Both the position numbers and the translations under genes were made by a program. Below are positions 1-27,749 of a stretch of DNA of 44,382 nt, piece by piece; within the stretch, counting starts at the first letter, position 1, and every line of letters begins with the position of its first letter. The DNA is from an uncultured Porphyromonadaceae bacterium (lineage in GTDB: Bacteria > Bacteroidota > Bacteroidia > Bacteroidales > Muribaculaceae), in NCBI GenBank assembly GCA_947573485.1, contig CANPGB010000027.1, positions 1 to 44,382 of the forward strand, read 5' to 3'. Under the pieces are notes generated by a model. It saw nothing but the letters and a program-made list of their open reading frames with translations, had not been told where the DNA came from and searched no databases.

Positions 1-688
1 GGGCCATGGCGGTGAAAATGCCTTTGTAGCCTTCGGCGTCGGTGTTGCCGCTCTCCACGTTGGCCTCGGGCTTGAAGCCGAGGCAGAGCTCGGCGTCTTC
101 CTCGTTGCCTATGCAGACATCGACATACTTCATCAGGGGTCGCATCACGCTTTGGGCTTTCTCGCTCGTCCACAGTTTCTTGCGGAAGTTGAGGTCGACG
201 CTCACCGTTACGCCGTGGCGCTTGGCGGCCTCGCAGGCGAGGCGTGTGAGCTCGGCGGCCTTGTCGGAGATTGCGGGGGTGATACCGCTCCAGTGGAACC
301 AGTCGGCGCCCTCCATTATAGCGTCGAAGTCAAAATCTTCGGGGTCGGCTTCGGCGATTGCCGAGCCTGCGCGGTCGTAAATAACCTTCGAGGGGCGCAT
401 GGAAGCGCCTGTCTCGCAGTAATATATGCCCACGCGCTTGCCACCGCGCGCAATGTGGCGGGTGTCGACGCCGTAGCGGCGGAGAGCGTTAACGGCGGCC
501 TGTCCGATTTCGTGAGCGGGGAGCTTCGACACGAAGCATGCGTCGTGGCCGTAGTTGGCGCACGACACGGCCACGTTGGCCTCGCCGCCGCCCCAGATAA
601 CGTCGAAAGAGTCGACCTGCACGAAACGTTTGTTTCCTTCGGGCGAGAGGCGCAGCATGATCTCGCCGAGTGTTACTATCTTGCTCAT
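1..688 (-). CDS. kdgK: 2-keto-3-deoxygluconate kinase, PfkB family (3' end cut by window)
   Basis: Reading leftward from the ATG at 688, the frame stays open to the window edge, so about 229 residues are visible and the C-terminal part is missing. The start (MSKIVTLGEIMLRLSP), the WGGGEANVAVSCANYG segment and the IARGGKRVGIYYCETGASMRPSKVIYD stretch (in three blocks) are typical of KdgK-type PfkB sugar kinases. The expected reaction is ATP-dependent phosphorylation of 2-keto-3-deoxygluconate to KDPG in the cytoplasm; there is no signal peptide. It lies 2 bp downstream of kduI, with the KduD-like gene further up the same unit, which supports the KDG assignment over other PfkB substrates. The DTGA-type catalytic region lies outside the window and could not be checked. 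Confidence 0.88.
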   Translation of the reverse strand, partial: MSKIVTLGEIMLRLSPEGNKRFVQVDSFDVIWGGGEANVAVSCANYGHDACFVSKLPAHEIGQAAVNALRRYGVDTRHIARGGKRVGIYYCETGASMRPSKVIYDRAGSAIAEADPEDFDFDAIMEGADWFHWSGITPAISDKAAELTRLACEAAKRHGVTVSVDLNFRKKLWTSEKAQSVMRPLMKYVDVCIGNEEDAELCLGFKPEANVESGNTDAEGYKGIFTAMA

Positions 689-690
689 GA

Positions 691-1611
691 TTATTTCATT
701 TCGAGGTAGCCGATTTTATCCATGTCGCCATAGTCGAGGTTCTCGCCGCCCATGCCCCAGATGAACATGTAGTTTGAGGTGCCTGCAGCGGCGTGTATAC
801 TCCACTCGGGAGCCATTACTGCCTGGTGATTGTGCAGCCATATGAGTCGGTTTTCCTGTGGCTCGCCCATGAGGTGGCAAATGGCGTTGCCCTCGGGAAC
901 GTTGAAATAATAGTACACCTCAACGCGGCGGTCGTGGGTGTGAGCGGGCATGGTGTTCCACACACTGCCGGGCATAAGCTCGGTGAGACCCATCTGAAGC
1001 TGACAGGGACCTTCTTCGAGCACGTTGGCAACGATGAGCTGGTTGATGTAGCGGTCGTTGCTCTCTTCGAGCGAGCCGGCGTGCATGCGGTTGGCTTTTA
1101 TCGAGCCCTTGCGGCCGTCGATAGTTATGAGCTGGGTCTTGTAGGCCTTGTGTGCGGGAGTGGAGTTGAGGTAGAACATTGCAGGCTTGGCATCGTCTTT
1201 GCTGCGGAAGCTCACGTTTCTGTTTCCGCGGCCAACGTAGAGGGCGTCTTTGAAGCCGAGCTCGTAGTCCTTGCCGTCGACGGTAACTATGCCGTCGCCG
1301 CCGGTGTTAATAACGCCGAGTTCGCGGCGCTCAAGGAAGTATTCGGCCTTGAGCGGGTCGATGGTCTCAAGCACCACGGTCTTGCCCACGGGGATAACGC
1401 CGCCGTACACAATGCGGTCGTACATCGAGTAGGTGAGGTTGATCTTATTCTCCTCCATAACCTTGGGCATCATGAAGTGCGAGCGGAGTTGTTCGGTGTC
1501 GTAGTGCTTCACGTCGTCGGGGTGGCAGGCGCGGAGTATTGTGTAGTCGGTCTGTGCACGGCCGCAGAGGCACGAGGCCATGAAAACGGCTGCTACTATC
1601 AGTTTTTTCAT
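691..1611 (-). CDS. kduI: 5-keto-4-deoxyuronate isomerase KduI with an N-terminal signal peptide
   Basis: The 306-residue protein matches KduI along its length. The four metal ligands of the family are present as H224, H226, E231 and H273, with the same 2-5-42 spacing as E. coli KduI (H196, H198, E203, H245). The family reaction converts 5-keto-4-deoxyuronate to 3-deoxy-D-glycero-2,5-hexodiulosonate. The unusual part is the first 20 residues: MKK, a hydrophobic stretch and GRAQ, a good signal peptidase I site with Q at +1. The family domain starts directly after it ([13 protein letters not shown]). Characterised KduI proteins are cytoplasmic and lack this extension, so a periplasmic enzyme is inferred. 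MASC (C14) could alternatively be a weak lipobox. It sits 2 bp after the EIIC gene and 2 bp before kdgK. Confidence 0.92.
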
Positions 1612-1613
1612 TG

Positions 1614-3035
1614 TTATTCAGTTGTTTGAAGTTCTGTTGAATCTTTGGCAACCATGGCACGCTGATTGCGGATAATAAGCACGCGGTTCCACCACATCAT
1701 GCCCATGGTTATGAGCACGAGTATGCCCGAACCTATCCACTTAAGATTTTCGGTGAGTTGGAAAATAATCCATGCCAAGGGGCTGCCTGCAAAGTCGAGG
1801 CTACCGCCCGAGAAACCTTCGGGAATTGCCACGGCGGCATCGCCGGTGGCTGCGTAGACGTCTTCGGCGGCGAGGGTGAACCATGCCGAGAGGTTGGTGA
1901 CCATGTAGAGGCTCAGTATTATCACCACGAGCCCCACGATAAAGGTCTTGACAACGCTGCCGCGTGTGAAGGGGAGCACAAGGGGGAAGACGTAGAACAT
2001 GCCTGCGAGCGAGGCCAGCGGCAGGAACTCGTTGCCCGGCATAACAACGGCAAGGAAGAGTGTGACGGGGATTAGCAGCAGCGACACCACAAGCGTTGTG
2101 GGGTGGCCGATGACAAGAGCCGGACTCATGCCTATGTTGAGGCCGTCGGCGCCCTTGAATTTGCGGGCTATGAGCTTGCGGGTGGCCTCTGAAATGGGTT
2201 TGAGACCCTCGATGAAGAGCACGGTGACGCGGGGTATCAACTCCATGACGGCGCCCATTTTTATGCCGAGGCCGAGAATATAGGGAATCTTGTCGATAAT
2301 CTCACCCCACGATTTGCAGGTGAGGCAGCCAATGCCTATACCCACGATAACGCCGAGGAAAAGAGGCTCGCCGAGGAGGCCGAATTTCTTCTTTAGCCCT
2401 TCGGCGTCGATTTCGAGGCGCTCCATGCCGGGCACTTTGTCGAGGCCTTTTGTTATAGCCCAGGCAAAGGGCACGAAGCCCGCGCAGAAAGGCTGCGGAA
2501 TCGAAATTCCGGCCATGCCGTCGTAGTAGTCCTGAAATTTCTTGGCGGTCATGTCGGCTAATATCAGGGTGATGATGTAGCAGACAATGGCTGCGAAGAA
2601 GCCCCAGGCGAGCGAACCCGACGCAAAGTAGACCACGGCGCCTATGAAGGCGAAATGCCAGTAGTTCCAGAGGTCGATGTTCACCGTGCGGGTGGTGCGC
2701 GTAACGAGCATGAGGATATTCACGCCCAGGCAGACGGGTATGATGAGGGCTCCCACGGCGGTGTTGTAGGCCACGGCGGCAGCGGCGGGCCAACCCATGT
2801 CGAACACCTTGAGCTGCAGGCCGTAGATGTCGACCACTGTGTTGAGCGCGGGGCCGAGCGCCGAGGTCAGGAGCGCCGTGACTATGGAGAGGCCTATGAA
2901 GCCCACGCCCACTTTAAGACCCGATTTGAGAGCCTCGCCGGCCTTGATGCCGATGCAGACACCGAGCACGGTGAATATCACCGGCATCATTACGGCCGCG
3001 CCGAGACCTATTATATACTTGAATACTTCTTCCAT
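1614..3035 (-). CDS. Orphan PTS galactitol-type EIIC (GatC-family) permease
   Basis: The 473-residue integral membrane protein has about ten or more hydrophobic segments. Its architecture and sequence ([19 protein letters not shown] near the start; [16 protein letters not shown] and [15 protein letters not shown] later) are those of the EIIC-GatC family, elevator-type sugar or polyol carriers. The ATG at 3035 was chosen because it overlaps the stop of the preceding gene by one base (TAATG); the frame is open further upstream but that would overlap the neighbour by over 100 bp. No EIIA, EIIB, EI or HPr gene is visible nearby, and PTS sugar uptake is rare in Bacteroidales. Lying between kduD/DUF4861 and kduI/kdgK, it is inferred to import an unsaturated or keto-deoxy uronate, probably without phosphorylation. 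Confidence 0.85.
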
Positions 3036-4177
3036 TAGTCTACAGTGATTGTTAAGGGTTGGCTGCGGCGGGCGGCGAAGTCGGCCAGGGCTGCCTGCCA
3101 CGCTTCCATATCGGGTACGAAGCCTTTCGACCACGACGCTCCCCACCAATAGGTGAAGGCATCGCCCGGCTCATAGTTCGCCGGGGCTGCGATATGGCCG
3201 CAGGCATCGGCAACGGCTTCGGCAAAAGGCAGGTAGAGCAGGGTATCGGAAGCGGGCGATACGAGTCCTGTGAATATGATGCCGTTGTCGCCGCCGGGGT
3301 TCTGCGTGAGGTCGGCGTAGGCCATGGTTCCGGCTTCCGGATTGAGAACGTAAGCCTCGGGATTGGATTCATGCACCACAATGCCGGGCATTATTGTGCG
3401 GGCGCCCGAGAGGCCGCTGTAGCTCACTGTGGTGCGGTTGAGGAAGTCGCCCTTGTCGAGGCTTATAACGCGGGTTTCAACCACGACTGTGTCGGTGTCG
3501 ACTGTCAGAGGAGCGTAGGTGAGACGCACGCAGAAGCGCAGCGGGCCGTTGTCGAGAATCTCATAATCGGCGAAGCAGTAGGGGTAGACGATGTTGGAGG
3601 CGCTGTCGAGCAGGGCTGCCGTTCCCGCTCCGAGAGTGGGACCTACGGCATAAACGTCCATGCCCTCGCCGTGGTCTTCGTGGAAAGAGATGCCACGATT
3701 GATGTGGTCGTAATAGCGTTTATTGACCACGGGCTGTGACACCGACTTTGTCCATACATCGTAGCCGAAAGCGCGCTCGCCGGTGCGCTGGAGTGCAGGG
3801 CCGTAGGCGCGGTAAGCTCCGAGGTCGTTCTCCCATGCCATGTCGTCGAGCCGTTCGGGCACGAGGCGACCGCACACGAGTGTATCGACGGGTGCAGGCG
3901 TGCCTTCCTTCAGGGTATAGCGCGATTCTGCCCCTGCTTTTACCGTGGCGGGGAAAATAATCTTGCCCTCGTGCGTGAGCTGGTAGGGAAGCTCGCTCCC
4001 CTCGGCGTCAAGAATTATGAATGAGCCGGGTGTGAGGCCTTTGAGAGCGGCTGTGTCTACCTCCACAATCTCGGCCTTGCGGTCGATGTCGGAACTGTTG
4101 CGCACGGTAATGGTGTGCCCTCCCGTGCAGGCGGCACAGGAGAGCAACACTATTGCATTTAAGAGGTGGCGTGTCAT
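3035..4177 (-). CDS. DUF4861 family lipoprotein
   Basis: This 380-residue protein starts with a short lipoprotein-type signal (hydrophobic run then LLSCAAC; C14 or C17 could be lipidated). The remainder looks like the DUF4861 family: TITVRNSSDIDRKAEIVEV near the N-terminus, a central DHINRGISFHEDHGEGMDVY segment rich in His, Asp and Glu, and a C-terminal FTYWWGASWSKG motif. Members occur in Bacteroidetes loci for uronic-acid polysaccharides; no activity is assigned here. It overlaps kduD upstream and the EIIC gene downstream by one base each (TAATG), so translation is probably coupled. Its place between KduD and the permease suggests a role in handling the uronate product in the periplasm, for example as an epimerase- or lyase-like beta-sandwich enzyme. 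This is inference. Confidence 0.7.
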   Translation of the reverse strand: MTRHLLNAIVLLSCAACTGGHTITVRNSSDIDRKAEIVEVDTAALKGLTPGSFIILDAEGSELPYQLTHEGKIIFPATVKAGAESRYTLKEGTPAPVDTLVCGRLVPERLDDMAWENDLGAYRAYGPALQRTGERAFGYDVWTKSVSQPVVNKRYYDHINRGISFHEDHGEGMDVYAVGPTLGAGTAALLDSASNIVYPYCFADYEILDNGPLRFCVRLTYAPLTVDTDTVVVETRVISLDKGDFLNRTTVSYSGLSGARTIMPGIVVHESNPEAYVLNPEAGTMAYADLTQNPGGDNGIIFTGLVSPASDTLLYLPFAEAVADACGHIAAPANYEPGDAFTYWWGASWSKGFVPDMEAWQAALADFAARRSQPLTITVD

Positions 4178-4974
4178 TATTGGGGCTGCTTACCGATGTA
4201 CGCGAGTATGCCGCCGTCGACGTAGAGCACGTGGCCGTTGACGAAGTTGGAGGCGTCGGAGGCAAGGAAAACTGCCGGGCCCATGAGATCCTCGGGAGTT
4301 CCCCAGCGGCCTGCCGGTGTCTTGGCGATGATAAACTGGTCGAAGGGGTGACGCGAGCCGTCGGGCTGGATTTCGCGCAGAGGAGCTGTCTGGGGTGTGG
4401 CGATGTAACCCGGGCCAATGCCGTTGCACTGGATGTTGTGCTCGCCATACTCCGAGCAGATGTTGCGGGTGAGCATTTTGAGACCACCCTTGGCGGCAGC
4501 GTAGGCGCTCACGGTCTCGCGGCCGAGCTCGCTCATCATAGAGCAGATGTTTATGATTTTGCCGTGCCCTTTCTTAATCATGCCGGGGATAACGGCTTTG
4601 GCGCAGATGAACGGTGCCACGAGGTCGATGTCGACAACCTTGCGGAACTCCTCGGCTGCCATTTCGTGCATGGGTATGCGCTTGATGATGCCGGCGTTGT
4701 TCACCAGGATGTCGACGCCGCCCATGTTCTTTTCGATGTCGGCTATCATAGCCTTCACGCCGGGCTCGTCGGTAACGTCGCAGAAATATCCTTTGGCGTC
4801 GATACCTGCTTCCTTATAGTTTGCGGCTCCCATTTCGAGAGCTTCGTCGGTGTTTGCGCAATATACGATGCGGGCGCCTGCGGCGTGGAAAGCTTTGGCA
4901 ATGGCGAAACCGATGCCATAGACTGCGCCTGTTACGAGGGCCACTTTTCCTTCGAGTGAAAATTGATTGGTCAT
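4177..4974 (-). CDS. kduD: KduD-like short-chain dehydrogenase (2-dehydro-3-deoxy-D-gluconate 5-dehydrogenase)
   Basis: The 265-residue protein is a classical SDR. It has the nucleotide motif TGAVYGIG at 15-22, NNAG at 92-95, and the catalytic S145, Y158 and K162 (YxxxK). There is no signal peptide, so it acts in the cytoplasm. Within the SDR superfamily it most resembles the gluconate 5-dehydrogenase/KduD group. With kduI and kdgK in the same unit, the likely reaction is NAD(P)H-dependent reduction of 3-deoxy-D-glycero-2,5-hexodiulosonate to 2-keto-3-deoxygluconate. The stop overlaps the next start by one base, and the gap to the upstream BNR_4 gene is 18 bp. Substrate is inferred from context; SDRs cannot be assigned by motifs alone. 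Confidence 0.85.
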   Translation of the reverse strand: MTNQFSLEGKVALVTGAVYGIGFAIAKAFHAAGARIVYCANTDEALEMGAANYKEAGIDAKGYFCDVTDEPGVKAMIADIEKNMGGVDILVNNAGIIKRIPMHEMAAEEFRKVVDIDLVAPFICAKAVIPGMIKKGHGKIINICSMMSELGRETVSAYAAAKGGLKMLTRNICSEYGEHNIQCNGIGPGYIATPQTAPLREIQPDGSRHPFDQFIIAKTPAGRWGTPEDLMGPAVFLASDASNFVNGHVLYVDGGILAYIGKQPQ

Positions 4975-4992: not shown

Positions 4993-6297
4993 TTAAATGT
5001 TAGCTTCGAGTACGTAGACGGGAGTAGCGTTGATGTCGACGGTTTTCTCGCCGTCGCCCTGCGCTGTTCTCTGTACGAATATATTGAGTTTGGAGTCGCG
5101 TCGCCAGAGGTCGCTGTCGAGAGTCGGTTCCCAGGCATCGACGTCGAGGTCGGCAAGGTCGGTCACGCTCCATGCGCCTTCGGGACCTGTGGTTGTGGAG
5201 GCCATTGATACCTTTGAGCCGCGTTCGGCGTCGCGGAAGATTACGCCGATGAAATCTTTGTCGGCCACAACGCGCGGTCGCGATATGGGAATCATCTTTG
5301 TGCCGCCGCCCGAGAGCGAGAAGGGTGTGGTTCGCTCCGAAATGGCGCGGTCGTTCCAGCGGCTGCCGTCGTGCCACACTATGCGGTACTGGGGCACGGT
5401 GGAGGCCGAGTCACGCCAATAGGTTACTATATAAGGCCGCGAATCTTTGTCGGCGGTCATGGAGGTTTGGTTTATGAGCTCGGAGTTCTGCGGGATAAGG
5501 CGTGCATACTCGGCGTTGGCAGCGGTGATTGGCAGCGTGTAGGGCGTGCCGTCGGAGCGGAGCCATGTGACACCGCCGTCGGTCGACTTGGCATAGCACA
5601 GGTCGTGGTTGGTCTCCACGAGCCATGTCTCGCGCCATACCCAAGAGAGATGTATCACATCGTTGGCGTCGACGTATAGCTGCCAGTAGGGGCTGCGCTC
5701 GTTCTCGCCGTCGAGGAGATTATCCTGCACGCGCTGCCAGCGGCGTGTGGCGGCATCGTAGCGGTTGATAGCCATGTTTCCGCGGCCTGAAGCCCCCGAG
5801 CGGTACACGAAGAGGAGGTCGCCGTTGGAGAGGCTGTAGAACTCGGGGTAAGTCACGTTGTCCTCGTCGAGGCCCGTCATGCTTTGCATGGGGCCGAGTT
5901 CGAGCAACCCCGGCGCTACAGCAGTGGCATAGCGCAGCGGGTGGCCGTGGTGGTCGAAAGATGCGTGGAGGAGGCCGTTGCCGTCGATGCCTATGCTTAT
6001 CACATTGTGAGCGTCGGCCACATTGCCCTTGTACTGCGTGCGGTGCAGCTGCCACTCGCGGCTGCCGTGGGCGCGCTTACCGAGGGTCACATAGCCCACG
6101 CTGTCGTAGTAGGCAATATACTGCGTGTCGCCGCGGGTAACGAGAGGCGAGGTGCGGAACACCGCCGTATTGACCGAGGTCTTGCTGTAGCCCGGGCCTA
6201 CCTCAATAAGCTCGGAAGTACGTGTTCCCGTGCAGTGCCAGCATAGAAATGCCGACACCGCAGGGAGCAGTATTTTTGAAAATAATGAGGGTTTCAT
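4993..6297 (-). CDS. BNR_4-type seven-bladed beta-propeller protein, candidate glucuronate lyase or alpha-L-rhamnosidase
   Basis: A 434-residue protein with an N-terminal signal (hydrophobic 8-20), then BNR-like repeats. The block H97-N98, D105, H111, H117 and H119-P-L-R-Y matches the conserved HN..D..G..H..H..PL.Y block of the BNR_4 group. That group contains ulvan lyases (PL24/PL25), GH145 alpha-L-rhamnosidases and L-rhamnose-alpha-1,4-glucuronate lyases (PL42). In this locus, which has GH105, KduI, KduD and KdgK but no other recognisable lyase, a lyase that produces a 4,5-unsaturated glucuronyl end is the simplest reading. A rhamnosidase is the main alternative. No sulfatase is present, which argues against ulvan. 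The start ATG overlaps the upstream stop by one base (TGATG). Family placement is fairly secure; activity is not. Confidence 0.75.
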   Translation of the reverse strand: MKPSLFSKILLPAVSAFLCWHCTGTRTSELIEVGPGYSKTSVNTAVFRTSPLVTRGDTQYIAYYDSVGYVTLGKRAHGSREWQLHRTQYKGNVADAHNVISIGIDGNGLLHASFDHHGHPLRYATAVAPGLLELGPMQSMTGLDEDNVTYPEFYSLSNGDLLFVYRSGASGRGNMAINRYDAATRRWQRVQDNLLDGENERSPYWQLYVDANDVIHLSWVWRETWLVETNHDLCYAKSTDGGVTWLRSDGTPYTLPITAANAEYARLIPQNSELINQTSMTADKDSRPYIVTYWRDSASTVPQYRIVWHDGSRWNDRAISERTTPFSLSGGGTKMIPISRPRVVADKDFIGVIFRDAERGSKVSMASTTTGPEGAWSVTDLADLDVDAWEPTLDSDLWRRDSKLNIFVQRTAQGDGEKTVDINATPVYVLEANI

Positions 6298-9200
6298 CAG
6301 AATTTGAACTTGTCGCCTTTGACGTAAACCTTGAAGTCTTTGACAGCGCCCGGCACCTCGGCTTCCATGCGGGGGAGGTATTCGAGGCCGCTGAGGGTGT
6401 GCTCGGCACCGAGGTCGAGAACGAGGCTGTGGGGATAGGGGGCATCGGCGCCTGTCGACCAGAATGTTGACTCCTGGAGGTCGTAGATTTTGTCGGCTGC
6501 GCGGTTTACGCCCTCAACATCTTCGGCATCGGCATAAAGCACCGTCCAGGGCTCGCGCGATATGCGTTTGCCGTCGGCATCGAGGAGGTAGAACTCGGCA
6601 ATGGCAGCGTTCTTGCCGCCGTCGATGGCGTTGAGGAACTCGAGAGCCACGTAGCGGCCTGTTGCCTCGGCGGGGAACTCAACCTTCTGCCAGCCGTTGC
6701 CGGGAGCAAAGCTGCCGGCCATTACGGCTTTCTCGCCCGAGAGGTCGAGGTTTTGGCCTTCTTCGCGGTGTGTGAGGGGGCGGGGAGTCTGAAGCTTGTC
6801 GATAACGTGCTTTGCGAGGCCTTCGCTGCGGGCTTCCTTGGGGCCTACGATGTCGAACACAAGAATTTCGTTCTCGCCTTTGCGCAGCCAGCAGCCGGGG
6901 AGGTAGAGCGTCTGCTGCGGACCGATTTCCCAGAAGCGGCCGAGGGCGTGGCCGTTGACATAGACGAGTCCTTTACCCCAGCTTTCCATGTTTATGAAAG
7001 TGTCGGCGGGACGCTTTACGTTGAATTTGGTGCGGTAGACACCGGCAGGGAGGCGTCCGGCCTCGTCTTTGGTGGCGTCGGCGAGCGGGCTGAAAGTCAT
7101 GCTTTCGTAGAACGATTCCTCGTCGGGCAGATTGAACACCTCCCAGTTGCGGAGCTCGGTGTTGAACGCGTAGCCGTCTTTATCAACGGTTACAGTAACA
7201 TTGTCGGTGATGCCTTTGAAGTCTTTTATGGCGCGGCCGAAGTTTATGCGGCCCATGGCTTCAACGAGGATGTCGAGCACGGCACCGGCCTTGACGGCGG
7301 GAATCTTGAGGCTCTTCTCGCCGAGGCGACGGTCGAGTTTGCCTATGTATTTGCCGTCGATGAAAATCTGTGCGAAGTCGTGAGGCTCGTTCACGGTGAG
7401 CAGGGCGGGGGCGTCGAGGGCGGGGAGGGTAGTGCGGTAGAGGATGCTGCCGAAGCCCTGGTCGTATTCCTCCATGGTGCGGATTTTCTTATCGCGCTTA
7501 GGAGCGGGAAGATTGGCGAAAAGAGGTGCGAACTCAGTGAAAGAGAACTCCTTGACAGCCGTGGTGGGAATGGCCTTGGGAATCTCGGGGAGTTTGCCGG
7601 GAGCGTACTTGGCAAGGGCGGCACGGAGGGCGTGATACTTGGGTGTGGCTTCGCCCGACTCGCTCACGGGAGCGTCGTAGTCATACGAGGTTACGTCGGG
7701 TGCGAAACCGGGCGAGTTGGCGCCTGCCCAGTGGCCCCAGTTGGTACCGCCGTGAGTCATGTAGAGGCTGAAAGATATGCCTTTGTCGAGCATTTCGGTG
7801 AGGCCTTCGATCATATCGGCGGCGGGGCGTGTCTCGTGGTTGCCACCCCACTTGTCGAACCAACCGCTCCAGAACTCAGAGCACATAAGGGGAGTGTTGG
7901 GGCGCTCGCGGCGCAGCCCTTCAAACTGCTGGTCGATGTTGGCGCCGGTGCCGAAGTTCACGGTCCAAATGAGATCGTCGAGACCGTTGTTGAGGAAGTT
8001 CGACGACCAGTCGCACTGGAAGAGAGTGACATCGTTGCCGAAGTTCTCGCGGAGCATGTCGCGTATGTTGCCCACGTACTCTTTATTGGTGCCGTAGGAG
8101 CCATATTCGTTCTCTACCTGCACCATGATGATAGGACCGCCGTCGGCCACGGTGAGGCCTTCGACCTCTTTGGCCACGGCTTTCTGGAATTTATCCACGC
8201 GTTCGAGGAAGTAGGGATCGTTCTCGCGGAGCTTGATGTCTTTTTTCTTGAGGAGCCACCAGGGCAGGCCGCCCATTTCCCACTCCGCGCACACATAGGG
8301 GCCCGGGCGGAGAATAACGTACATGTCGTTTTTCTTGCACAGGCGGATAAACTCGGCAAGGTCTTTCTGACCCTCGAAATCGAAGTTGTCGGGCGTAGCC
8401 TCGTGGTTGTTCCAAAACACGTAGAGACATATGGTGTTCATGCCCAGTGCTTTGCACATCTGTATGCGGTGCTCCCAATATTCGCGGGGGATGCGGGGGT
8501 AGTGGAGTTCGGCAGCTTTGACAACGAAGGGCTCGCCGTTGAGCAGGAAGGTGCCGTTACCGGCCTCGAAGCGGCCTTTGTCTTTGAACACGTCCATGCC
8601 CCAGCTCTCGCGCCAGGGTATGCTTATGCTGTCGCCGTTGAACTCTATGGGCAGCCACACGTAGCGGGAGTCCTCGAGGTCGGTCTTGTTCCAGCGGTCG
8701 AACATTGCCACATAGGCATCGTCCTTGCCGTGGATAGGCTGCACGTAGGTGCTCTGGGCGTAGAAAGTCTTGTCGGCGTCGGTGCCGGTGCAGGGGTTGC
8801 CGAGGTTAGTCCATGTACCCATTATCGAGTCGGCCACGGCGAGCCCGGCCTGGTTGGGGTCCCAGCCTGAGCAGCCCGAGGTGAGCACATAGTATTTGCC
8901 ATTGTGCTTGAATACGGCGGGTGCCTCGCGTGCCTCCCCTATGAAATTGCGGGTGTATCGGCCCGTGGGGCGCATGTAGTCGTCGGTAAGCTCGGCGATG
9001 TACATGGTCTGGTTGTTCTCCGAAGAGTAGAACTGATATGCCTTGCCGTCGTCATCGACAAATACCGTCTGGTCGCGGCTCATGGCGTTGTTGGGGCGGA
9101 AGCTGCCAACGTATGTGAAGGGGCCTGTGGGGCTGTCGCTTACGGCAACACCAGCAGCGGCCTTGCTGTAGTCGGCGCTCTCGGCGTGCACCCACATCAC

Positions 9201-9599
9201 AAACTTGCGAGTCTTGGGGTTATACACCACCTTGGGGCGCTCTATGACCTTGCTCGGGTGCAGGTCGCTGCCGGGGATGTCGGGCTCAGCGGCGAGCACC
9301 ACGCCCTCGAATTTCCAGTTTACCATGTCGGGCGATGAGTAGCAGCTGACTCCCGTTACATCGGTGCGGTAGCACTCCCATGTGGCCCACTCGGGGAGCA
9401 CGGTCTTGCCTTTTTTATATTCACCGTACCAGTAGTAGGTGCCGTTGTGGTAGAGGATACCGCCGCCATGGGCGTTGACAGGGTTGCCGTCGGTATCGAG
9501 CCATTGCTCGTACTGCACGATTCGGTCGCGGGCTCCGGCGGGAGCGGCGAGCGAGAGTGCGGCTGCGGCAATCACAAATGTCGTGATAATTTTATTCAT
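6297..9599 (-). CDS. Secreted GH43-GH35 fusion with C-terminal F5/8-type domain (beta-galactan exo-enzyme)
   Basis: This 1100-residue protein joins two catalytic domains. Residues 1-23 are a signal peptide (APAGA then R). Residues about 25-335 are GH43, close to the galactanase-type subfamilies: NAHGGGILY, TYYWYGEYK, ERPKVVYN and EAPAVF with E225 as likely general acid. The usual Asp base near the N-terminus is replaced by the HGGG segment. Residues about 343-960 are GH35 beta-galactosidase, with acid/base E498 in VQVENEYG and nucleophile E575 in CSEFWSGW. Residues about 965-1100 resemble a galactose-binding F5/8 domain. A combined exo-beta-1,3-galactanase and beta-galactosidase activity would suit arabinogalactan side chains. 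The gap to the upstream GH97 gene is 10 bp. Substrate is inferred. Confidence 0.9.
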   Translation of the reverse strand: MNKIITTFVIAAAALSLAAPAGARDRIVQYEQWLDTDGNPVNAHGGGILYHNGTYYWYGEYKKGKTVLPEWATWECYRTDVTGVSCYSSPDMVNWKFEGVVLAAEPDIPGSDLHPSKVIERPKVVYNPKTRKFVMWVHAESADYSKAAAGVAVSDSPTGPFTYVGSFRPNNAMSRDQTVFVDDDGKAYQFYSSENNQTMYIAELTDDYMRPTGRYTRNFIGEAREAPAVFKHNGKYYVLTSGCSGWDPNQAGLAVADSIMGTWTNLGNPCTGTDADKTFYAQSTYVQPIHGKDDAYVAMFDRWNKTDLEDSRYVWLPIEFNGDSISIPWRESWGMDVFKDKGRFEAGNGTFLLNGEPFVVKAAELHYPRIPREYWEHRIQMCKALGMNTICLYVFWNNHEATPDNFDFEGQKDLAEFIRLCKKNDMYVILRPGPYVCAEWEMGGLPWWLLKKKDIKLRENDPYFLERVDKFQKAVAKEVEGLTVADGGPIIMVQVENEYGSYGTNKEYVGNIRDMLRENFGNDVTLFQCDWSSNFLNNGLDDLIWTVNFGTGANIDQQFEGLRRERPNTPLMCSEFWSGWFDKWGGNHETRPAADMIEGLTEMLDKGISFSLYMTHGGTNWGHWAGANSPGFAPDVTSYDYDAPVSESGEATPKYHALRAALAKYAPGKLPEIPKAIPTTAVKEFSFTEFAPLFANLPAPKRDKKIRTMEEYDQGFGSILYRTTLPALDAPALLTVNEPHDFAQIFIDGKYIGKLDRRLGEKSLKIPAVKAGAVLDILVEAMGRINFGRAIKDFKGITDNVTVTVDKDGYAFNTELRNWEVFNLPDEESFYESMTFSPLADATKDEAGRLPAGVYRTKFNVKRPADTFINMESWGKGLVYVNGHALGRFWEIGPQQTLYLPGCWLRKGENEILVFDIVGPKEARSEGLAKHVIDKLQTPRPLTHREEGQNLDLSGEKAVMAGSFAPGNGWQKVEFPAEATGRYVALEFLNAIDGGKNAAIAEFYLLDADGKRISREPWTVLYADAEDVEGVNRAADKIYDLQESTFWSTGADAPYPHSLVLDLGAEHTLSGLEYLPRMEAEVPGAVKDFKVYVKGDKFKF

Positions 9600-9609
9600 A
9601 GTATTAGAG

Positions 9610-11565
9610 TTAGATAGTTTCTATTACGAAGCCATGTGCGGGTTTTACGCTCACTTTCACCTTGGCGGGGTTTTTGAGGGTGAGCCCGGTGCGCCCGAAC
9701 ACTTCTTTTTTATTCTCTGAGTAAAGAAGAGCCTTGGTGCCGGCATCGAGCATGCTGAGGTCGAGCTCAAGGTCGAGAGCCTCGGGCAGCGCGTTGACGC
9801 CTGCTATATACCATTTTGTGTCTTTGCGGCGGGCTATCACCACATAGCGGCCCGGATAGCCGTCGATATAAACGGTTTCGTCCCATGTAGTGGGCACTTC
9901 TTTCATAAATTCAATGGCCTCGGCAGGAGCCTCGCGGTAAGCCTCGGGGGTGAGGGCGAAGTTCTGCAGAGGGTTCTGGAAGAGGATAGCCGTTGCGAGC
10001 TGGAAGGCGTCGGATGTGCGGCGTATATTGCCTCCCTCGTTATTCTTGGCAAGACGGCGGTTGAGCAGCGTGCCGCCGTACTCCATGCTGCCGACAGCGT
10101 TGCGGATAAAGGGGTGCAGGGTGGCGTTGAAAGCCTCGGCGTCGCAGAAATCCTGGCGGAAAATGAGGTTTTCAGAGGCGAGGACGGCCTCGCTGCCCAC
10201 ATAGTTGGGGTATAATCTTTCCCAGCCTCGGGGAAGAGTGCAACCGTGGAATATAACGCTTATGCCGTAGTCGGCGGCATCGCTGAGAATATCTTCGTAG
10301 AGGCGCATGGTCTCCTGTTTGTCGCCGCCGAAGAAATCAACTTTAATGGTTTTCACCCCGAGGTCGCGCAGCCATTTCATTTCTTTCTTGCGGCTTATGG
10401 GGCGCGACATGATGTCGACGGGGCTCTGCGTGATATCGTTCCACCAGCCGCTTGAGGAGTACCAGAGTGCTATTGAAGTGCCCTTGCTGCGTGCATAGTC
10501 CATGAGGCGGGCGATGCCCTCGCGACCGATGTTCACATCCCAGCCGCAGTCTATCAGGGCGTAGTCGTAGCCCATGTCGGCGGCGAGGTCGATGAACAAC
10601 TTCTGGTCGTCGAAGTTTATGCTGCCGTCCTGCCACAGAATCCAGCTCCACGTACCTTTTCCTTCGGTACGGGTGTCGGCTTCGTAGAGCGAGGGCAGGG
10701 GAGCCCAGGGTATCACCGTTTCCACAATAGGTTTGAGCGAGCTGCCAAGTGTTATCGTGCGCCACGGCGTAGCACCGGGCAGGGCAATGCCGGGAGCGGC
10801 GCTGCCGTTGCCATTGTTCTCGGCGGCCATGGGATATTCTATTTTATACCCTTGGCCGTCGAATTCACCCAAGCGGGAGGCACAGTAAGAGCCGTCGACA
10901 CCCGTCTCGCTCACGAGCACCCAACCGCGGTCGCCCACATGGAAGAGCGCCGGGAAGGTGTAGCCGCGTCCGTACTCCGAGGGCGCTGTCATAGGGGCGT
11001 CGTTGGTGTAGTTTTCCTCGTAGCTGGGTTTTGTGCGCTTCCAGCCTATCATGGGGTCGCTCTGCGGGGTGATGAATGTAGTTGTGAAAGAGGGGAAGGC
11101 GAAAGATGTGCTCTCGCTCTCGACCACGGCGCTGTGCCGCTCTCCCTGCACGGGTATGAGGTAGCGGAAAGCGATGTCGTTGTCGCCCACAAGCCACTCG
11201 ATTGCGAACTCGCCGCCGCTGTTGTTGCGGTAGCGCGATACCAGTCGGTTGGCTTTGAAATCGACCGTGGAGTGCTTGATGCGGTCCTGCGCGAACTTGG
11301 CGTGGAATGTGCCGGTGCTGTCGCAAAGGTGGGTGAGCGAGTCCGTGTAGTTGCCCGTATCGGCCGTGAAACCCAGGCGCGACGGCTCGATGAGCACAAC
11401 GCCCTTATGACTCACCGCGTAGCGGGGCACGCCACCCTCGCAGGATAGCGTTACCACTGTCTTGCTGTCGGGGCTCGCTATCTCTGCTGCAGTTGCAGAG
11501 GAGCTTGTGCACGCAAGGGCTAAAGCGGCTAAAATCAGCCCTATGCAGCGGATTTTGTTATTCAT
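9610..11565 (-). CDS. GH97 glycosidase lipoprotein (alpha-galactosidase or beta-L-arabinopyranosidase type)
   Basis: The 651-residue protein has a lipoprotein signal (ALALAC, C19) and the full GH97 architecture: N-terminal beta-supersandwich to about residue 280, TIM barrel to about 560, and a C-terminal beta domain. TWSWILWQDGSINFDDQ, DYALIDCGWD and the VKTIKVDFFGGDKQETM region are typical. D410 in KVDFF fits the retaining branch, whose nucleophile is an aspartate, as in the B. thetaiotaomicron alpha-galactosidase, rather than the SusB-type inverting branch. E459 or E465 in VGSEAVLASE is a candidate acid/base. In an arabinogalactan locus it would remove terminal alpha-galactose or beta-L-arabinopyranose; which one cannot be read from the sequence. 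It lies 7 bp after the tandem GH43 gene. Confidence 0.9.
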   Translation of the reverse strand: MNNKIRCIGLILAALALACTSSSATAAEIASPDSKTVVTLSCEGGVPRYAVSHKGVVLIEPSRLGFTADTGNYTDSLTHLCDSTGTFHAKFAQDRIKHSTVDFKANRLVSRYRNNSGGEFAIEWLVGDNDIAFRYLIPVQGERHSAVVESESTSFAFPSFTTTFITPQSDPMIGWKRTKPSYEENYTNDAPMTAPSEYGRGYTFPALFHVGDRGWVLVSETGVDGSYCASRLGEFDGQGYKIEYPMAAENNGNGSAAPGIALPGATPWRTITLGSSLKPIVETVIPWAPLPSLYEADTRTEGKGTWSWILWQDGSINFDDQKLFIDLAADMGYDYALIDCGWDVNIGREGIARLMDYARSKGTSIALWYSSSGWWNDITQSPVDIMSRPISRKKEMKWLRDLGVKTIKVDFFGGDKQETMRLYEDILSDAADYGISVIFHGCTLPRGWERLYPNYVGSEAVLASENLIFRQDFCDAEAFNATLHPFIRNAVGSMEYGGTLLNRRLAKNNEGGNIRRTSDAFQLATAILFQNPLQNFALTPEAYREAPAEAIEFMKEVPTTWDETVYIDGYPGRYVVIARRKDTKWYIAGVNALPEALDLELDLSMLDAGTKALLYSENKKEVFGRTGLTLKNPAKVKVSVKPAHGFVIETI

Positions 11566-11572
11566 GTATAAA

Positions 11573-13555
11573 TTAGAGGCTTACGCCCTCGCTTGAGTGA
11601 TGAATCTTGCGTATAGTGCCGTCGGCATTATACTCCATGGGCTCGATAACCACCGAGCGGCTGCCGCTGCCGCCACCGTCAAGACCGCCGTTGTGGCTTA
11701 TGAAGAGCCAGTGGTCGCGGAAATTGACAATTGCCGGGTGTGTGGTGTTGCAGTTGCCTGCTATCTCAGAAATTATGCCCATTGGGCGGTAAGGCCCATC
11801 CACCTTGTCGGCCATGGCGTAGGCGATTTTCTCGGGCCACTCTGCAGCATAGGCCAGGTAGTATTTGCCCTTGTGTTTCCATAGCCACGGAGCCTCGGTG
11901 AAAGGGTGCTCGCCGTCGAGGTCGACTTGGCGGATGTCGCCCTCTATACCGAGCATGTCATCGCTGAGCTTCGCCATATAGCACTGGCGGTTGCCCCAAA
12001 GAATATACGATTCACCGTTGTCATCGGTAAAGACGGCAGGGTCGATGCAGGCCCATGCGTGGTCGGAGGCGAAGCAGTCTTTGTTGGTGAGCATGGGTTT
12101 TCCCAAAGCGTCTTTGTAGGGCCCGGTGATATTGTCGCTCACGGCCACGCCTATACCACCCCAGTTGGTGCTCACATACCAGTAGTATTTGCCGTTTTTG
12201 GCGGCCACGTGGCCTGCAAAGGCGTTTTCGGCGGGAGCCCATTTGAAGTCGGTGACTTTCAGTGGCGAGGGGTATTCAGTCCAGTTGGTGAGGTCGGGTG
12301 TGGAGAACACGAGCCAGTCGTTCATGTGGTAGCCCGGGCGGTTGCCGGGCTCGTCGTGGCCGGTGAAGAGCCACAGCTTATCTTCGACCACCATTGCTGC
12401 TGGGTCGGCGGTGTGCTTGTGGCGGATTACAGGATTTCCTTTGCTCGTGAAAGAGTAGAGCGGAATCTCCGAAGGCTCTGTTGCCGTGATGTAGGGCGTG
12501 CCGTCGGCCTCAAAAGATATGGGCAGCCACAGGTGTCGCGAGTCGGGGAGCGCCTTCGGGTTCCATATGTCGGCCATGAAGGTATACGAGTCGCCGTTCT
12601 TGAGTATGAAAGTGCTCTGTGCGCCAAAGGTGAGTTCGGCACCCTCGCCACGGCATGGGTTTGGCAGCCGGTGCCACTCGCCCATGATAGAGTCGGCCCA
12701 CATGAGTCGGGCTTCGTTGGGCGCCCAGCCGGTGCAGCCCGAGGTTATCATCCAGTATTTGCCGTCTTTCTTGAAAATCGCCGGGGCTTCGTTGTGGCCG
12801 CCGGGGAAAATGCGGATATATTTCCCGGTGTGATTGGTGAACGAGGGGTCGAGTTCGGCAATCTGCAGAGTGAGGTTCTCTTCTGATGAGTATATGTGGT
12901 AAGCCTTGCCGTCGTCGTCGACAAAGAGGGTCATATCGCGTGCCATTTGGCCGCCGTCGAGGTCACGGTAGGTGAGCATGCCGCCCTCAATTTTGGCGCG
13001 CCACTCGGGAGTCCACCACTCCATGGCGAGGTCGTCCGCCGTGGGACGCGGGGCGTTGCCGATGTTGGCAGGCAGGATTCCGGCGTTTACTCGGCTGCTG
13101 CGAAGTGGCTCGAAAGGGCCGAGAGGATTGTCGGCCACTGCCACTGCAGTGTGTGCGGCGGCATAGCCTTGCCCCTTGAGCTCGTGGTGGAACCACATCA
13201 CATATTTCCCCGTAGCGGGGTTATAGATAACCTTGGGGCGCTCGATGGTTGAGCCCCGCTCCACTATGGCACCGGCGCTGTCGCTCACCGCCATGACAAT
13301 GCCGCGGTTCTCCCAGTGCAGGAGGTCGCGCGAGGTGTAGCAGGCGACACCATCCTGCGGGGCGTTGTAGCCGCGGTGTTCGCCATACCAATAGTAAATG
13401 CTGTCGGGCCCGGCGAGGATACCGCCGCCGTGGCAGTTGATGTGTTTGCCCTCATTGTCAGGCCAATACTCACCTTTGATTACGGGTGTGCGGGCTTCGC
13501 AGAGGCTTGCGGTCAAGGTCAGCAGACAGATGCCTGCTGTAAGTCGGTAGTGCAT
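11573..13555 (-). CDS. Tandem GH43-GH43 glycosidase
   Basis: A 660-residue secreted protein with signal peptide 1-22 and two five-bladed propeller domains. The first (about 24-350) is of the same type as the GH43 part of the neighbouring GH43-GH35 fusion: NCHGGGILAG, IYYWYGEH, IERPKVIYN and HNEAPAIF with E256 as likely acid; it also lacks the usual N-terminal Asp base. The second (about 365-655) is a canonical GH43 with base D384 in HTADPAAM, DPAVFTDDNG in the middle and FTEAPWLWKHKGKYY carrying the acid Glu. The first probably trims galactan, the second arabinofuranose or xylose. It is the first enzyme gene after the regulator, 29 bp downstream of its stop. Confidence 0.88.
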   Translation of the reverse strand: MHYRLTAGICLLTLTASLCEARTPVIKGEYWPDNEGKHINCHGGGILAGPDSIYYWYGEHRGYNAPQDGVACYTSRDLLHWENRGIVMAVSDSAGAIVERGSTIERPKVIYNPATGKYVMWFHHELKGQGYAAAHTAVAVADNPLGPFEPLRSSRVNAGILPANIGNAPRPTADDLAMEWWTPEWRAKIEGGMLTYRDLDGGQMARDMTLFVDDDGKAYHIYSSEENLTLQIAELDPSFTNHTGKYIRIFPGGHNEAPAIFKKDGKYWMITSGCTGWAPNEARLMWADSIMGEWHRLPNPCRGEGAELTFGAQSTFILKNGDSYTFMADIWNPKALPDSRHLWLPISFEADGTPYITATEPSEIPLYSFTSKGNPVIRHKHTADPAAMVVEDKLWLFTGHDEPGNRPGYHMNDWLVFSTPDLTNWTEYPSPLKVTDFKWAPAENAFAGHVAAKNGKYYWYVSTNWGGIGVAVSDNITGPYKDALGKPMLTNKDCFASDHAWACIDPAVFTDDNGESYILWGNRQCYMAKLSDDMLGIEGDIRQVDLDGEHPFTEAPWLWKHKGKYYLAYAAEWPEKIAYAMADKVDGPYRPMGIISEIAGNCNTTHPAIVNFRDHWLFISHNGGLDGGGSGSRSVVIEPMEYNADGTIRKIHHSSEGVSL

Positions 13556-13584: not shown

Positions 13585-16500
13585 TTATTCGTTGTCTTCG
13601 TAGGGTGTAGAATGCAGTGAAGATTTCGACGAATATTCAGAAGGAGAAACTCCGAATTCTTTCTTGAAAAGACGCCTGAAATAGGCTACGCTGCCAAAGC
13701 CGGTCATAGAGGCGATGTCGGCCAGCGTGTTGTTTTTGTCGTCGAGGAGCTCGACGGCCTTGCGGAGTTTTATCTTGCGGATAAACTCGTTGGGGGTGAG
13801 GCCCGATATGCTCTTTACCTTGCGGTAGAGCGTGGAGTGGCTCATGCACATGCGGTCGGCGAGGAAAGTCTGGTCGAACTCTTCCATTTCCATGTTTTCC
13901 TCCACCAGGCGGCAAAGCTTCTCGATGAACTCTTTATCGAAAGCGCTGAGCTCCGCAGGAGCTCCGCGCGACCCGACTTCGTCGGCTTGCGCGGAGCCGC
14001 CAATGTCGGTTTTCTTGCCCTTTGGTTCCTGCACTTTTATATTGAGCAGGCGCATGGTGAGCTTGTGTCGTGTCTCGATTATATTGTTGATACGTGCGCG
14101 CAGGAGAGTGGCGCTGAAAGGCTTGGTTATATATGAGTCGGCGCCCGATTCATAGCCCTCCTCCTTGTCGCGCAGGGTGTCTTTCGCCGTAAGGAGAATA
14201 ATGGGTATATGGCTGGTAGCCATCTCGTTCTTGAGCTTGTTGCACATCTCTATGCCGTCCATTTCGGGCATCATGATGTCGCTCACTATAATGTCGGGCA
14301 TGTCGGAAATGGCAATTTCGTATCCCTCCTTGCCGTTGGCGGCGGTCAGCACCTTGAAATCTTCGGCGAAAGATTGTGCTATGTACTCGCGCATGTCGTT
14401 GTCGTCTTCCACCACGAGGAGCACGAGTTTGCTCTCAGAGGCAGGCTGCTCGGCAAGCTGACCCTCTTCGGTGCTTGTGGTCTCCGTTTCCTGAGCCTCG
14501 GTGTGGTTGGCGTCGGGATAGCAGTTTTCCTGCAGCAGGCGCACGGTGAACACAGTGCCCTTGCCGGGCTCCGAGGCAACGGTGATATTGCCCTGGTGGA
14601 GCTCCACGAGGTTTTTGGTGAGTGCGAGGCCAATGCCCGTGCCGGAGGTCTTGCGCGCGTTGGAGGCCTGGTAGTAGCGCTCGAACACGTGGGGCAGAGA
14701 GTCTTTGGAGATACCCGTGCCGGTGTCGCTTACGGCGAGGTCGACATATTTCACATTGCCTTCGGTGACCGGTGTGAGCGAGAGTGTGATAGTGCCCGTG
14801 CGGGTATACTTCATGGCGTTGCTCATGAGGTTGTTGATTATCGTGGTGATAATCTCGGGGTCGTAGTACATTTTCACGCCTTCGACACTCGCCACATCAA
14901 TCACGATGCTCACATCTTTGTTGCTGTTCAGCTCTTTGAAGCGCAGACCAATCTCGCGCACGTAATTGGCAAGATTATCCTGCACCACAGAGAGTTTGCG
15001 GTGGTGAGTCTCTGTCTTGCGGAACTCGAGGATGCCGTTGATGAGGTTGAGCAGGCGCATCGAGCTCGTGCGTATGGTGTGGAGCTTCTTGCGGTTGGTG
15101 TCGTTGATCGAGGTGTCGTTGACCAAGTCCTCGATAGGGCCGATTATGAGCGAGAGCGGTGTGCGGAGCTCATGGGTGATGTTTGTGAAGAACACCATAC
15201 GCTCTTCGTTGAGGGTCTGCACGTTCTTTATGTTCTCGCGCTCGATTGCGAGGTTCTTCTCAAGGTTGAGCTTGTGCTTGTAGAAGTAAATGAGCACATA
15301 TATGATTACAATACCGCAGGCCACATAGAGCAGGATAGCCCACCATGTGTGCCAAATGGGAGGTGTAATCTTGATGAAGGCGAGTGTCTGCGGCTCGCCC
15401 CACTTCTCGCCGTTGAAGCGCTGCATTGCCTGGAACTTGTAGTCGCCCGGCGAGAGGTTGCGGTACACGGCCTCGTTGTTTACCATGCCCTTTGTCCATA
15501 CTTCGTTGATACCCACCATGGTATAGGCGTACTCCGAGTTGGCGGCTCCGGTGATGTCGGGGTTGTTGAAGCGGAGGGTGAAAGTATTTTTGTTGTAGGG
15601 CAGGGTAATGTGGTCGTTGTCAACGGGTATCTCAATCTCGAGGTTGTGGTCGGAGCCGTTGCTGTCGTGTGCGAAGAGCTCGGTGAGAATCACCTCGGAG
15701 TTGTTGTGCGTGCTGTTGTGGCTGTTGGGCGTGAAGGTAGTGAGGCCGTTGAGTGAGCCGAAGTATATGCGTCCGTTGCGGTCGGTGGCTGCCGAGTGCT
15801 CGATATATGATTCGAGATTCATGGCGTGAGTCTTGCCGTAGACCGAGATTTTGCCGTCGTGAGGAGAGTAGAGTGCTATTCCGCGGTTTGTGCCGAACCA
15901 TATGTTGCCGCTGCGGTCTTCGGTAATCGACTTTATGAAAGAGCTTACAAGACCGTCGGCGCGGGTGAAGTCGCGCATACGGTTCAGTTTGGGTCCCGAC
16001 AGCTGCAGGGCTCCTTCGCGCGTGCCTATCCATATGTTTCCGCTGCGGTCTTCCATAATGGTGTTTACTGCATTGGAGGGCAGACCGTTCTGCGAGTCAT
16101 AGGATACTATAAGCTCGCCTTTGTTGCTGAATTTCACCGCTCCCTTGCCGAGGGTTCCCACCCACAGACTGCCGTCGCCGTCGAAGGTCAGGCTTGTCAC
16201 GAAGTTGTCGGGGAGCTGGGCGTTGTATATCGACAGCGGCTCGGCGCTTTTGCCGTCGGCCGATGTGAAGATGCCGAGGCTTGTGCCTATGAAAACAGTG
16301 CCGTCGGCGGCTTCGGCGAAGCACTTTATTTCCGTGTCGGGAATTTCGATTACCCCGATGTTGTTCTTTTTGTTGTCGTATATGTAAATTCCGGCATAGC
16401 TGGTGCCTACCCACAGCCGCCCTTTGGTGTCGCCGAGCAGAGCCTTGACGAGCGATGAGTAGCCGAGGTTGGCGTGTGTTACGGTGATGCGGTTGGGCGG

Positions 16501-24370: not shown

Positions 24371-24378
24371 TAATTTTG
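24371..24378 (+). promoter_or_regulatory. Candidate -7 box of the susC promoter
   Basis: TAATTTTG matches TAnnTTTG and continues as TAATTTTGCA, the same ten bases as the -7 box of the GH105 operon. No good -33 TTTG is found 19-20 nt upstream, consistent with activator dependence. The susC ATG lies 40 nt downstream. Confidence 0.5.
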
Positions 24379-24417
24379 CAACCAGATAACAAACCGTCAT
24401 TAACCAAATTTATTACC

Positions 24418-27400: not shown

Positions 27401-27720
27401 TCGGCGAGAACCTCGACTCATACTACGCTCGTCCTATCTATTATACCAACAAGAACCGTATAATGCAGACGCGCTACCTCCAGGACGCTTCCTACGTGCG
27501 CCTCAAGAATCTCCAGGTTGGCTACACCTTCCCCAAGAGCATAACTCAGAAATTCTTTGTCGACAACCTCCGCATATTCTTCTCGGCAGAAAACCTCTGC
27601 ACCTGGACAAAGATGTCGAAAGTTATCGACCCCGAATCGCTCGAAGTTTCTTCAATGAAGTCAGGCTCGTCCTATCCTCTTGCCAAGACCTTCTCGTTCG
27701 GCCTCACACTCGATATTTAA
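24418..27720 (+). CDS. susC: SusC-like TonB-dependent outer-membrane oligosaccharide transporter
   Basis: The start at 24418 gives a normal signal peptide (MIKTKTWKSRIAVAVL, cleavage near VWA-SPAEA); an in-frame ATG 42 bp upstream would bury it. The 1100-residue protein has a CarboxypepD_reg-like N-domain (HSVTGTVTDAEGEPLIGAS), a TonB-box-like DEVVVVGF, a plug domain (SGGPLILIDGMEG, DIESISVLKDAAASSIYGSRAPFG) and a 22-strand barrel of the SusC family. It imports oligosaccharides across the outer membrane with energy from TonB and works as a pair with the SusD lipoprotein encoded 29 bp downstream. The specificity determinants cannot be read; arabinogalactan fragments are inferred from the neighbouring enzymes. 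Confidence 0.97.
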   Translation: MIKTKTWKSRIAVAVLMCATVAWATPVWASPAEAAAPQSSQQLHSVTGTVTDAEGEPLIGASVVVKGANRGVTTDLDGNFTIQAAQGQTLQISYVGCVPQEVKVGTGHINIVLQENSNALDEVVVVGFATQKKVNLTGSVGTATSKDIASRPVQSAAAALQGVIPGLNISNSSSGGELNASKQVEVRGMGTIGDGSSGGPLILIDGMEGDMNTLNPNDIESISVLKDAAASSIYGSRAPFGVILITTKTGSEGRAQIHYNNSFRFNQPLTTMKMMDSWQYLNYLNDVKTYTDGGKEFNQDFLDGAWAYYTGESDNYIYENKWDGTHRRWGTGECGGTFANVNWVDELYKKTAFAQEHNVTLTGGSEKVTYYVSGNFLDQGGFLKYGNDNYDRYSVMGKFSAKMTNWLNVQYTGRWIRTEYDRPQIMTGGFYEKVIRRLPPTNPKYDPNGYIAADYNYIEHLENGGRFKEQNDAFTNQFKLIITPLKNWNIIGEFNLRVNNDWRHQETKVVYAHDADDLDGLSSETTHVAFDSGDHDSVLERAYRSTYLNYNIYSDYSFNFAEKNNMKVMLGFQAEDFKDRYMQASRNDMLVEDLPVLDLTTSTETYGINGAYQKWRTAGFFGRINYDFDSKYLLEVNLRYDGSSRFRRESRWVWSPSFSAGWNIDRENFWESIRPIIPSLKLRASYGQLANQNTSGWYPTYRIMKVYNQGSNWLVNGAKPNTANFPTLISSGLTWEKIRNTNIGIDFSAFRYRLTGSFDYFWRTNSDMVGPAVTLPAVFGASVPKENNLKMRTYGWELQIGWQDHINDFNYSAKLNLSDDQTKILEYPNVEQYINNSNYDPYNNYIAGDVVGNIYGLTSVGVARDQATMDAHLAHTDQSQIGDNWQAGDMMYQDIDGDGVITRGTSKNNLGDLKVIGNQQPRYRLGLNLFAQWKGIDLTVFFQGVLKRDYYFNPDGGQGTGGKGAVFWGATRGGRWESIFLQEHLDYWRDDSSVLGENLDSYYARPIYYTNKNRIMQTRYLQDASYVRLKNLQVGYTFPKSITQKFFVDNLRIFFSAENLCTWTKMSKVIDPESLEVSSMKSGSSYPLAKTFSFGLTLDI

Positions 27721-27749
27721 TCAAGCGTTAAATTGATTTACCAAGAAAA

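Follow-up and report, generated by a model that had tools for sequence, protein, structure and literature searches.

In which compartment does the uronate isomerase KduI act, and how would its product then reach the enzymes downstream? Textbook KduI is cytoplasmic. The question is raised by a 44,382 nt stretch of DNA (contig CANPGB010000027.1 of assembly GCA_947573485.1, from an uncultured Porphyromonadaceae bacterium of the Muribaculaceae, genome G000), here called the window, in which a KduI with a signal-like N-terminus is encoded beside a GatC-type EIIC of the phosphotransferase system (PTS). Our answer, held with moderate confidence, is that the uronate route is split across the inner membrane: isomerisation would take place in the periplasm, the EIIC would import the product without phosphorylation, and reduction and phosphorylation would follow in the cytoplasm. 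This was the scheme of the original prediction, an earlier reading of the same DNA, and it is the best-supported of those weighed here; the periplasmic site of KduI, the role of the EIIC as importer and its substrate are what we infer. The genes at its centre are these:

2..688, minus strand: PfkB-family sugar kinase, KdgK-like, without a signal-like N-terminus, truncated where the contig ends (PF00294, 83.1 bits)
691..1611, minus strand: KduI, 306 aa, signal-like N-terminus (NF002091, 387.9 bits, cut-off 250; metal-site motifs)
1614..3035, minus strand: GatC-type EIIC, 473 aa, lacking PTS partners and put forward as the carrier that imports the KduI product (PF03611, 256.9 bits, cut-off 24.2)
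3035..4177, minus strand: DUF4861 / BT3233-family protein, lipoprotein-like N-terminus (PF16153, 297 bits; NF058564, 384.9 bits, cut-off 320)
4177..4974, minus strand: short-chain dehydrogenase/reductase (SDR), KduD- or DhuD-like, no signal-like N-terminus (NF005488, 489.8 bits, cut-off 369)

Transcription on the minus strand runs from a rhamnosidase through the SDR reductase, DUF4861, EIIC and KduI to the PfkB kinase, which the contig end cuts; KduI starts 2 bases past the stop codon of the EIIC. The earlier placing of the EIIC between KduI and the KduD-like gene stands, with the amendment that the DUF4861 gene, absent from that account, also lies between them, separating the EIIC from the KduD-like gene. 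The reductase passed the gluconate 5-dehydrogenase model NF005488 and fell below the cut-off of the kduD model TIGR01832 (222.3 bits against 338.85), and the available text of PMC12838403 describes kduI-dhuD pairs in Bacteroidaceae; on these grounds it could be a DhuD. The top NCBIfam match of the kinase was NF041633, at 356.9 bits for the fragment and below the cut-off of 700.

The claim that KduI combines a signal-like N-terminus with an intact metal site, and that KduD and KdgK have no such N-terminus, was borne out by hydrophobicity, charge and motif alignment. The NF002091 alignment begins only at residue 27. Within residues 1-30 the hydrophobic peak (10-residue mean) reaches 2.60, with a charge of +2 over residues 1-8, and 13 other exported or membrane-type N-termini of the locus lie at 2.20-3.27 on the same measure; the KduD-like protein peaks at 1.93 (charge -1), a small margin below the lowest of the 13, and KdgK at 1.42. 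Signal-like calls here and below were made on hydrophobicity and charge, by pattern and by eye. Residues H224, H226, E231 and H273, which we take to be the metal ligands, fall within the HTH..RR.E and WSIH stretches when aligned to the KduI structures 1xru and 1x8m.

If the N-terminus were no export signal, or if translation began at the in-frame ATG at residue 11, KduI would be cytoplasmic and the EIIC would import 5-keto-4-deoxyuronate (DHU) itself. That ATG favours such a reading, as do five Verrucomicrobia/Kiritimatiellae relatives in which the hydrophobic N-terminus is very short; we nevertheless consider it improbable. The inner Met is not conserved, and an MK or MR start at least 18 residues ahead of the mature motif is kept in 53 of 63 rows; the pattern used for this count is crude and overlooks some clear cases, among them L004, L017 and L085. 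The chain of the solved structure 9kd0 aligns to the window KduI from residue 20, one residue past the predicted cut, and looks like the mature form of a signal-type KduI (a literature search returned no paper on 9kd0; 9kcz is a structure of the plain type). Residue 29 is a cysteine (Cys29) in 89% of the signal-type set as against 6% of other KduI, an enrichment that would be in keeping with a disulfide if the enzyme is exported, without showing one.

By sequence (PF03611 over its cut-off) and by its GatC fold, the EIIC belongs to the PTS EIIC-GAT family; against the galactitol-specific subfamily TIGR00827 it scored 383 bits, below the cut-off of 542.2. A search of the G000 genome (2.88 Mb, 49 contigs, 99.96% complete), in which EIIA was not covered, returned no match to HPr (PF00381), the enzyme I (EI) N-domain (PF05524) or PTS_IIB (PF02302); among 14 named genomes serving as controls the same three were matched in 7, 7 and 6, respectively. 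The EI, HPr and cognate EIIB that a functional PTS permease requires were lacking, and the view of the EIIC as an orphan holds for these components, both beside it and elsewhere in the genome. The same lack would suit a PTS remnant retained by linkage and no longer transporting. We regard this as very improbable, given that the EIIC is full-length with a complete fold, that mean column identity is 77% over 44 homologues, and that it is retained beside KduI across families.

The linkage itself was examined in 199 genomes (completeness at least 95) sampled evenly across Bacteroidales. The EIIC exceeded its cut-off in 7 of them. KduI was found as 59 genes in 56 genomes, and all 59 N-termini were read: 8 were of the signal type, 50 were plain and 1 (G578) was incomplete. 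The signal type occurred in G000 (two genes), G411, G229, G330, G453, G528 and G507, and these seven genomes are also the seven that carry the EIIC; genome-wide, none of the 49 KduI genomes without a signal-type KduI (G578 and its incomplete N-terminus included) had an EIIC over the cut-off. The association is strong by Fisher's test (p ~4e-9), with the reservation that the rows are non-independent, the signal type being one clade. The EIIC lies directly upstream of 7 of the 8 signal-type genes, the exception being the G000 copy with which contig C36 begins; beside the other 51 KduI genes no EIIC was found in the flanking DNA fetched, which reached less than 2.5 kb upstream for 5 of them. Both KduI types occur in G453 and G528, where the EIIC adjoins the signal type only. 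The co-occurrence that the original prediction proposed to look for was thus found across the order, in both directions. In a sample of the phylum, 4 of 392 genomes had an EIIC over the cut-off, all in Bacteroidales (G387 among them). Two weaker matches fell below it: G030 at 19 bits and, as an eighth genome in the set of 199, G513 at 23.1 bits, the latter rejected after no EIIC, KduI or other operon gene was found nearby (phmmer, E <=1).

A KduI tree was built from the 199-genome set together with a set of named loci, the 80 most similar of at least 592 and so biased toward the window type (141 rows in all, with some duplicates, e.g. L026 and L139). Signal-type KduI formed one clade of 64 rows with a Shimodaira-Hasegawa-like approximate likelihood ratio (SH-aLRT) of 80, and a core of 61 rows with an SH-aLRT of 99. 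The N-terminal extension is present across homologues in this clade, and a signal-like N-terminus was called in 58 of the 64 rows (56 with a sequence pattern and two, L005 and L010, on inspection). In 58 of the 64, too, the strand that encodes KduI carries an EIIC no more than 3 kb away; the six without one are L085 and L013, which are at contig ends, the Verrucomicrobia/Kiritimatiellae metagenome-assembled genomes (MAGs) L049, L050 and L056, and L040_b, a second copy lacking the signal. Neither feature occurs in the 77 rows outside the clade. At the level of loci, 57 of the 60 signal-clade loci examined had an EIIC, in most cases no further than 160 bp upstream of KduI; kdgK or another gene intervenes in L003, L005, L008, L052, L054 and L055. 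Independent, repeated evolution of signal and EIIC was considered and rejected, as there is one clade and the test of independent pairs was not significant. On the tree, the co-occurrence is one conserved linkage and not repeated convergence.

Second copies were present in G000, which has two EIIC genes and two KduI genes. Its other KduI, on contig C36, likewise has a signal-like N-terminus (MKKTILSLALAAFAALAQAQTSYS), and with both of its KduI genes of the signal type no plain KduI was found in the genome. The other EIIC is on contig C20 (locus L086), between DUF4861 and kdgK. The kdgK copies that end C20 (1-690) and the window (1-690) differ at 8 positions over the first 690 bases, and because they are nearly identical the contigs probably break at a kdgK repeat; recent gene conversion is the other explanation for such near-identical copies at both contig ends. 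In relatives such as L003, kdgK is placed between EIIC and KduI, and C20 presumably continues into C36.

Several points weigh against a periplasmic isomerase served by the EIIC. Both the export of KduI and transport by the EIIC are predictions from sequence. Because signal-type KduI forms one clade, its linkage to the EIIC may have arisen only once, and the pairs test had just 5-6 pairs (median p 1). Two Verrucomicrobia MAGs, L049 and L050, have a signal-like KduI with no EIIC in the locus DNA examined, and L056 has none within 5.4 kb upstream; the very short hydrophobic N-termini mentioned above are those of L044, L052, L054, L055 and L056. G000 contains one RpiB-family gene, which leaves room for a DhuI-like isomerase in the cytoplasm. 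Finally, an ExuT-like transporter of the major facilitator superfamily (MFS) may import the KduI product in some species. Its gene is a neighbour of KduI in 16 of 62 signal/EIIC rows, as compared with 17 of 79 others (the flanking DNA extended to at most 10 kb for one set and to ~4 kb for the other).

The last point opens another account, in which KduI is exported, an MFS or other carrier imports its product or its substrate, and the EIIC carries a different sugar of the glycan, perhaps a neutral one. The ExuT-like MFS, whose NCBIfam match is a D-galactonate transporter model below its cut-off, is the next gene downstream of KduI in many Bacteroides-type loci and lies downstream of it in L050 as well, a locus in which no EIIC was seen; moreover, relatives of the EIIC take several polyol- and pentose-like substrates, according to the available text of PMC10989795. 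By the same neighbour counts the MFS is not associated with signal-type KduI, whereas the EIIC tracks it both ways in the 199 genomes. Matches to the MFS were strong in G411, G330, G453 and G507, weak in G229 and absent from G000 and G528. Since those two have no match, the MFS is not a general partner of signal-type KduI; as a general explanation it was rejected for them and stands for the species that have it. We judge this account unlikely overall, though less so than a cytoplasmic KduI.

Under the split route that we prefer, the steps would be as follows. An exported fusion of a GH88-type hydrolase and a glucuronate dehydratase would free DHU in the periplasm from the terminal glucuronate of the polysaccharide. 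KduI, whose signal-like N-terminus is seen and whose location would follow from it, would convert DHU there into 3-deoxy-D-glycero-2,5-hexodiulosonate (DK-II). The GatC-type EIIC, acting as a secondary carrier or a facilitator, would move DK-II over the inner membrane, with the downstream enzymes providing the pull. In the cytoplasm, by homology, the KduD/DhuD-like SDR would reduce DK-II to 2-keto-3-deoxygluconate (KDG) and the PfkB kinase would make 2-keto-3-deoxy-6-phosphogluconate (KDPG). For a more specific proposition we see about even chances: that the EIIC is a dedicated, phosphorylation-free importer of DK-II, a diketo sugar acid, coupled to the periplasmic isomerase, and that gut Bacteroidales use this split route for some of their uronate catabolism, with the adjacent DUF4861 lipoprotein perhaps adding a further periplasmic sugar-handling step. 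The model of the DUF4861 protein (mean predicted local distance difference test score 87.6) shows a beta-supersandwich similar to domains found in GH38 and PL26 enzymes; a periplasmic role in sugar handling, e.g. mutarotase-like, is a guess from that model. Several Flavobacteriia and Sphingobacteriia-type loci also have a DUF4861 / BT3233-family gene in the neighbourhood of a plain KduI.

The source of the substrate is to be sought in the remainder of the locus:

4993..6297, minus strand: alpha-L-rhamnosidase, BT3686 type, signal-like N-terminus (NF052497, 717.8 bits, cut-off 700; PF15892)
6297..9599, minus strand: GH43 + GH35 fusion, signal-like N-terminus (PF01301, PF04616)
9610..11565, minus strand: GH97 (PF10566, PF14508, PF14509)
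11573..13555, minus strand: GH43 (PF04616)
13585..17685, minus strand: hybrid two-component sensor/regulator of the locus (Reg_prop, HATPase_c, Response_reg, HTH_18)
17949..20276, plus strand: GH88-type unsaturated uronyl hydrolase fused to DUF2264, signal-like N-terminus (PF07470, 306.5 bits; PF10022, 396.2 bits)
24376..29864, plus strand: outer-membrane pair, SusC-like (24376-27720) and SusD-like (27750-29864) (PF07715, PF00593, PF07980, PF14322)

The enzymes of the locus (GH16, GH35/GH43, two GH43, GH51-like, GH97 and the rhamnosidase), found with the SusC/SusD-like pair and the hybrid two-component regulator, suggest a glycan target of the arabinogalactan type. This assignment depends on what these enzyme families are taken to act on. 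In the 17949-20276 protein, the GH88-type part (residues 28-380) matches the solved structure 5noa, and the DUF2264 part (382-763) matches the solved glucuronate dehydratases 9o4u and 9nwf, as well as 8oi4, deposited as a beta-galactosidase. Glucuronate dehydratases prime terminal glucuronate for GH88, according to the available text of PMC12269599, and the fusion is likely, from its domains, to be the source of the KduI substrate. Elsewhere in the window, a Pfam search at E 1e-5 left the open reading frames 29988-30821 (with a signal-like N-terminus), 32841-34118 and 37427-38605 without a match, and 36341-37423, outside the polysaccharide utilization locus (PUL), encodes a Fic/DOC-family protein with a winged-helix domain.

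Parts of this picture are already on record: a lone Bacteroides IIC (TC 4.A.5.1.4) has been proposed as a secondary carrier in the available text of PMC6281302, and the solved KduI 9kd0 looks like the signal type without its signal. The original prediction presented both the arrangement and an EIIC free of the phosphorelay as new; the second idea was anticipated in PMC6281302, while for the pairing of signal-type KduI with a lone EIIC our literature search, mostly outside subscription journals, returned no paper; the available text of PMC12838403, PMC6281302, PMC9067506, PMC12269599, PMC6994673, PMC10989795, PMC6045597, PMC7953866, PMC13274419 and PMC8072126 had nothing on it. In the available text of PMC6994673, DHU feeds into cytoplasmic metabolism, and no name is given for the protein by which gut Bacteroidales import unsaturated uronates over the inner membrane. 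The split route, if true, would assign a substrate to a lone IIC so far recorded without one, place in the periplasm a step that textbooks put in the cytoplasm, and account for the presence of two KduI types in some genomes; it also lends itself to a genetically simple test in culturable species.

Comparison with known systems places the window as follows. Its KduI shares family score, metal-site motifs and KduD-like and KdgK-like neighbours with known KduI (NF002091; 9kd0, 9kcz, 1xru), and differs from the textbook enzyme in its signal-like N-terminus and adjoining EIIC. Flavobacterium-type loci with an ExuT-like MFS have the same pathway enzymes, with KduI, KduD-like and often KdgK-like genes clustered, but their KduI has no signal and there is no EIIC. 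The EIIC has the sequence family and whole fold of the galactitol PTS component GatC (PF03611, 9u82), in a genome without EI, HPr and IIB. It is of the same family as the lone Bacteroides IIC of TC 4.A.5.1.4, which is likewise proposed to act without a phosphorelay; the available text of PMC6281302 terms such genes monocistronic and mentions no KduI, whereas the window EIIC is tied to a signal-type KduI. Lastly, both domain kinds of the Bacteroides caccae pair BcGDH and GH88 recur in the window within one protein predicted to be exported; in the available text of PMC12269599 they are separate proteins. The window PUL appears, from its enzymes, to be of the arabinogalactan type and not a chondroitin locus.
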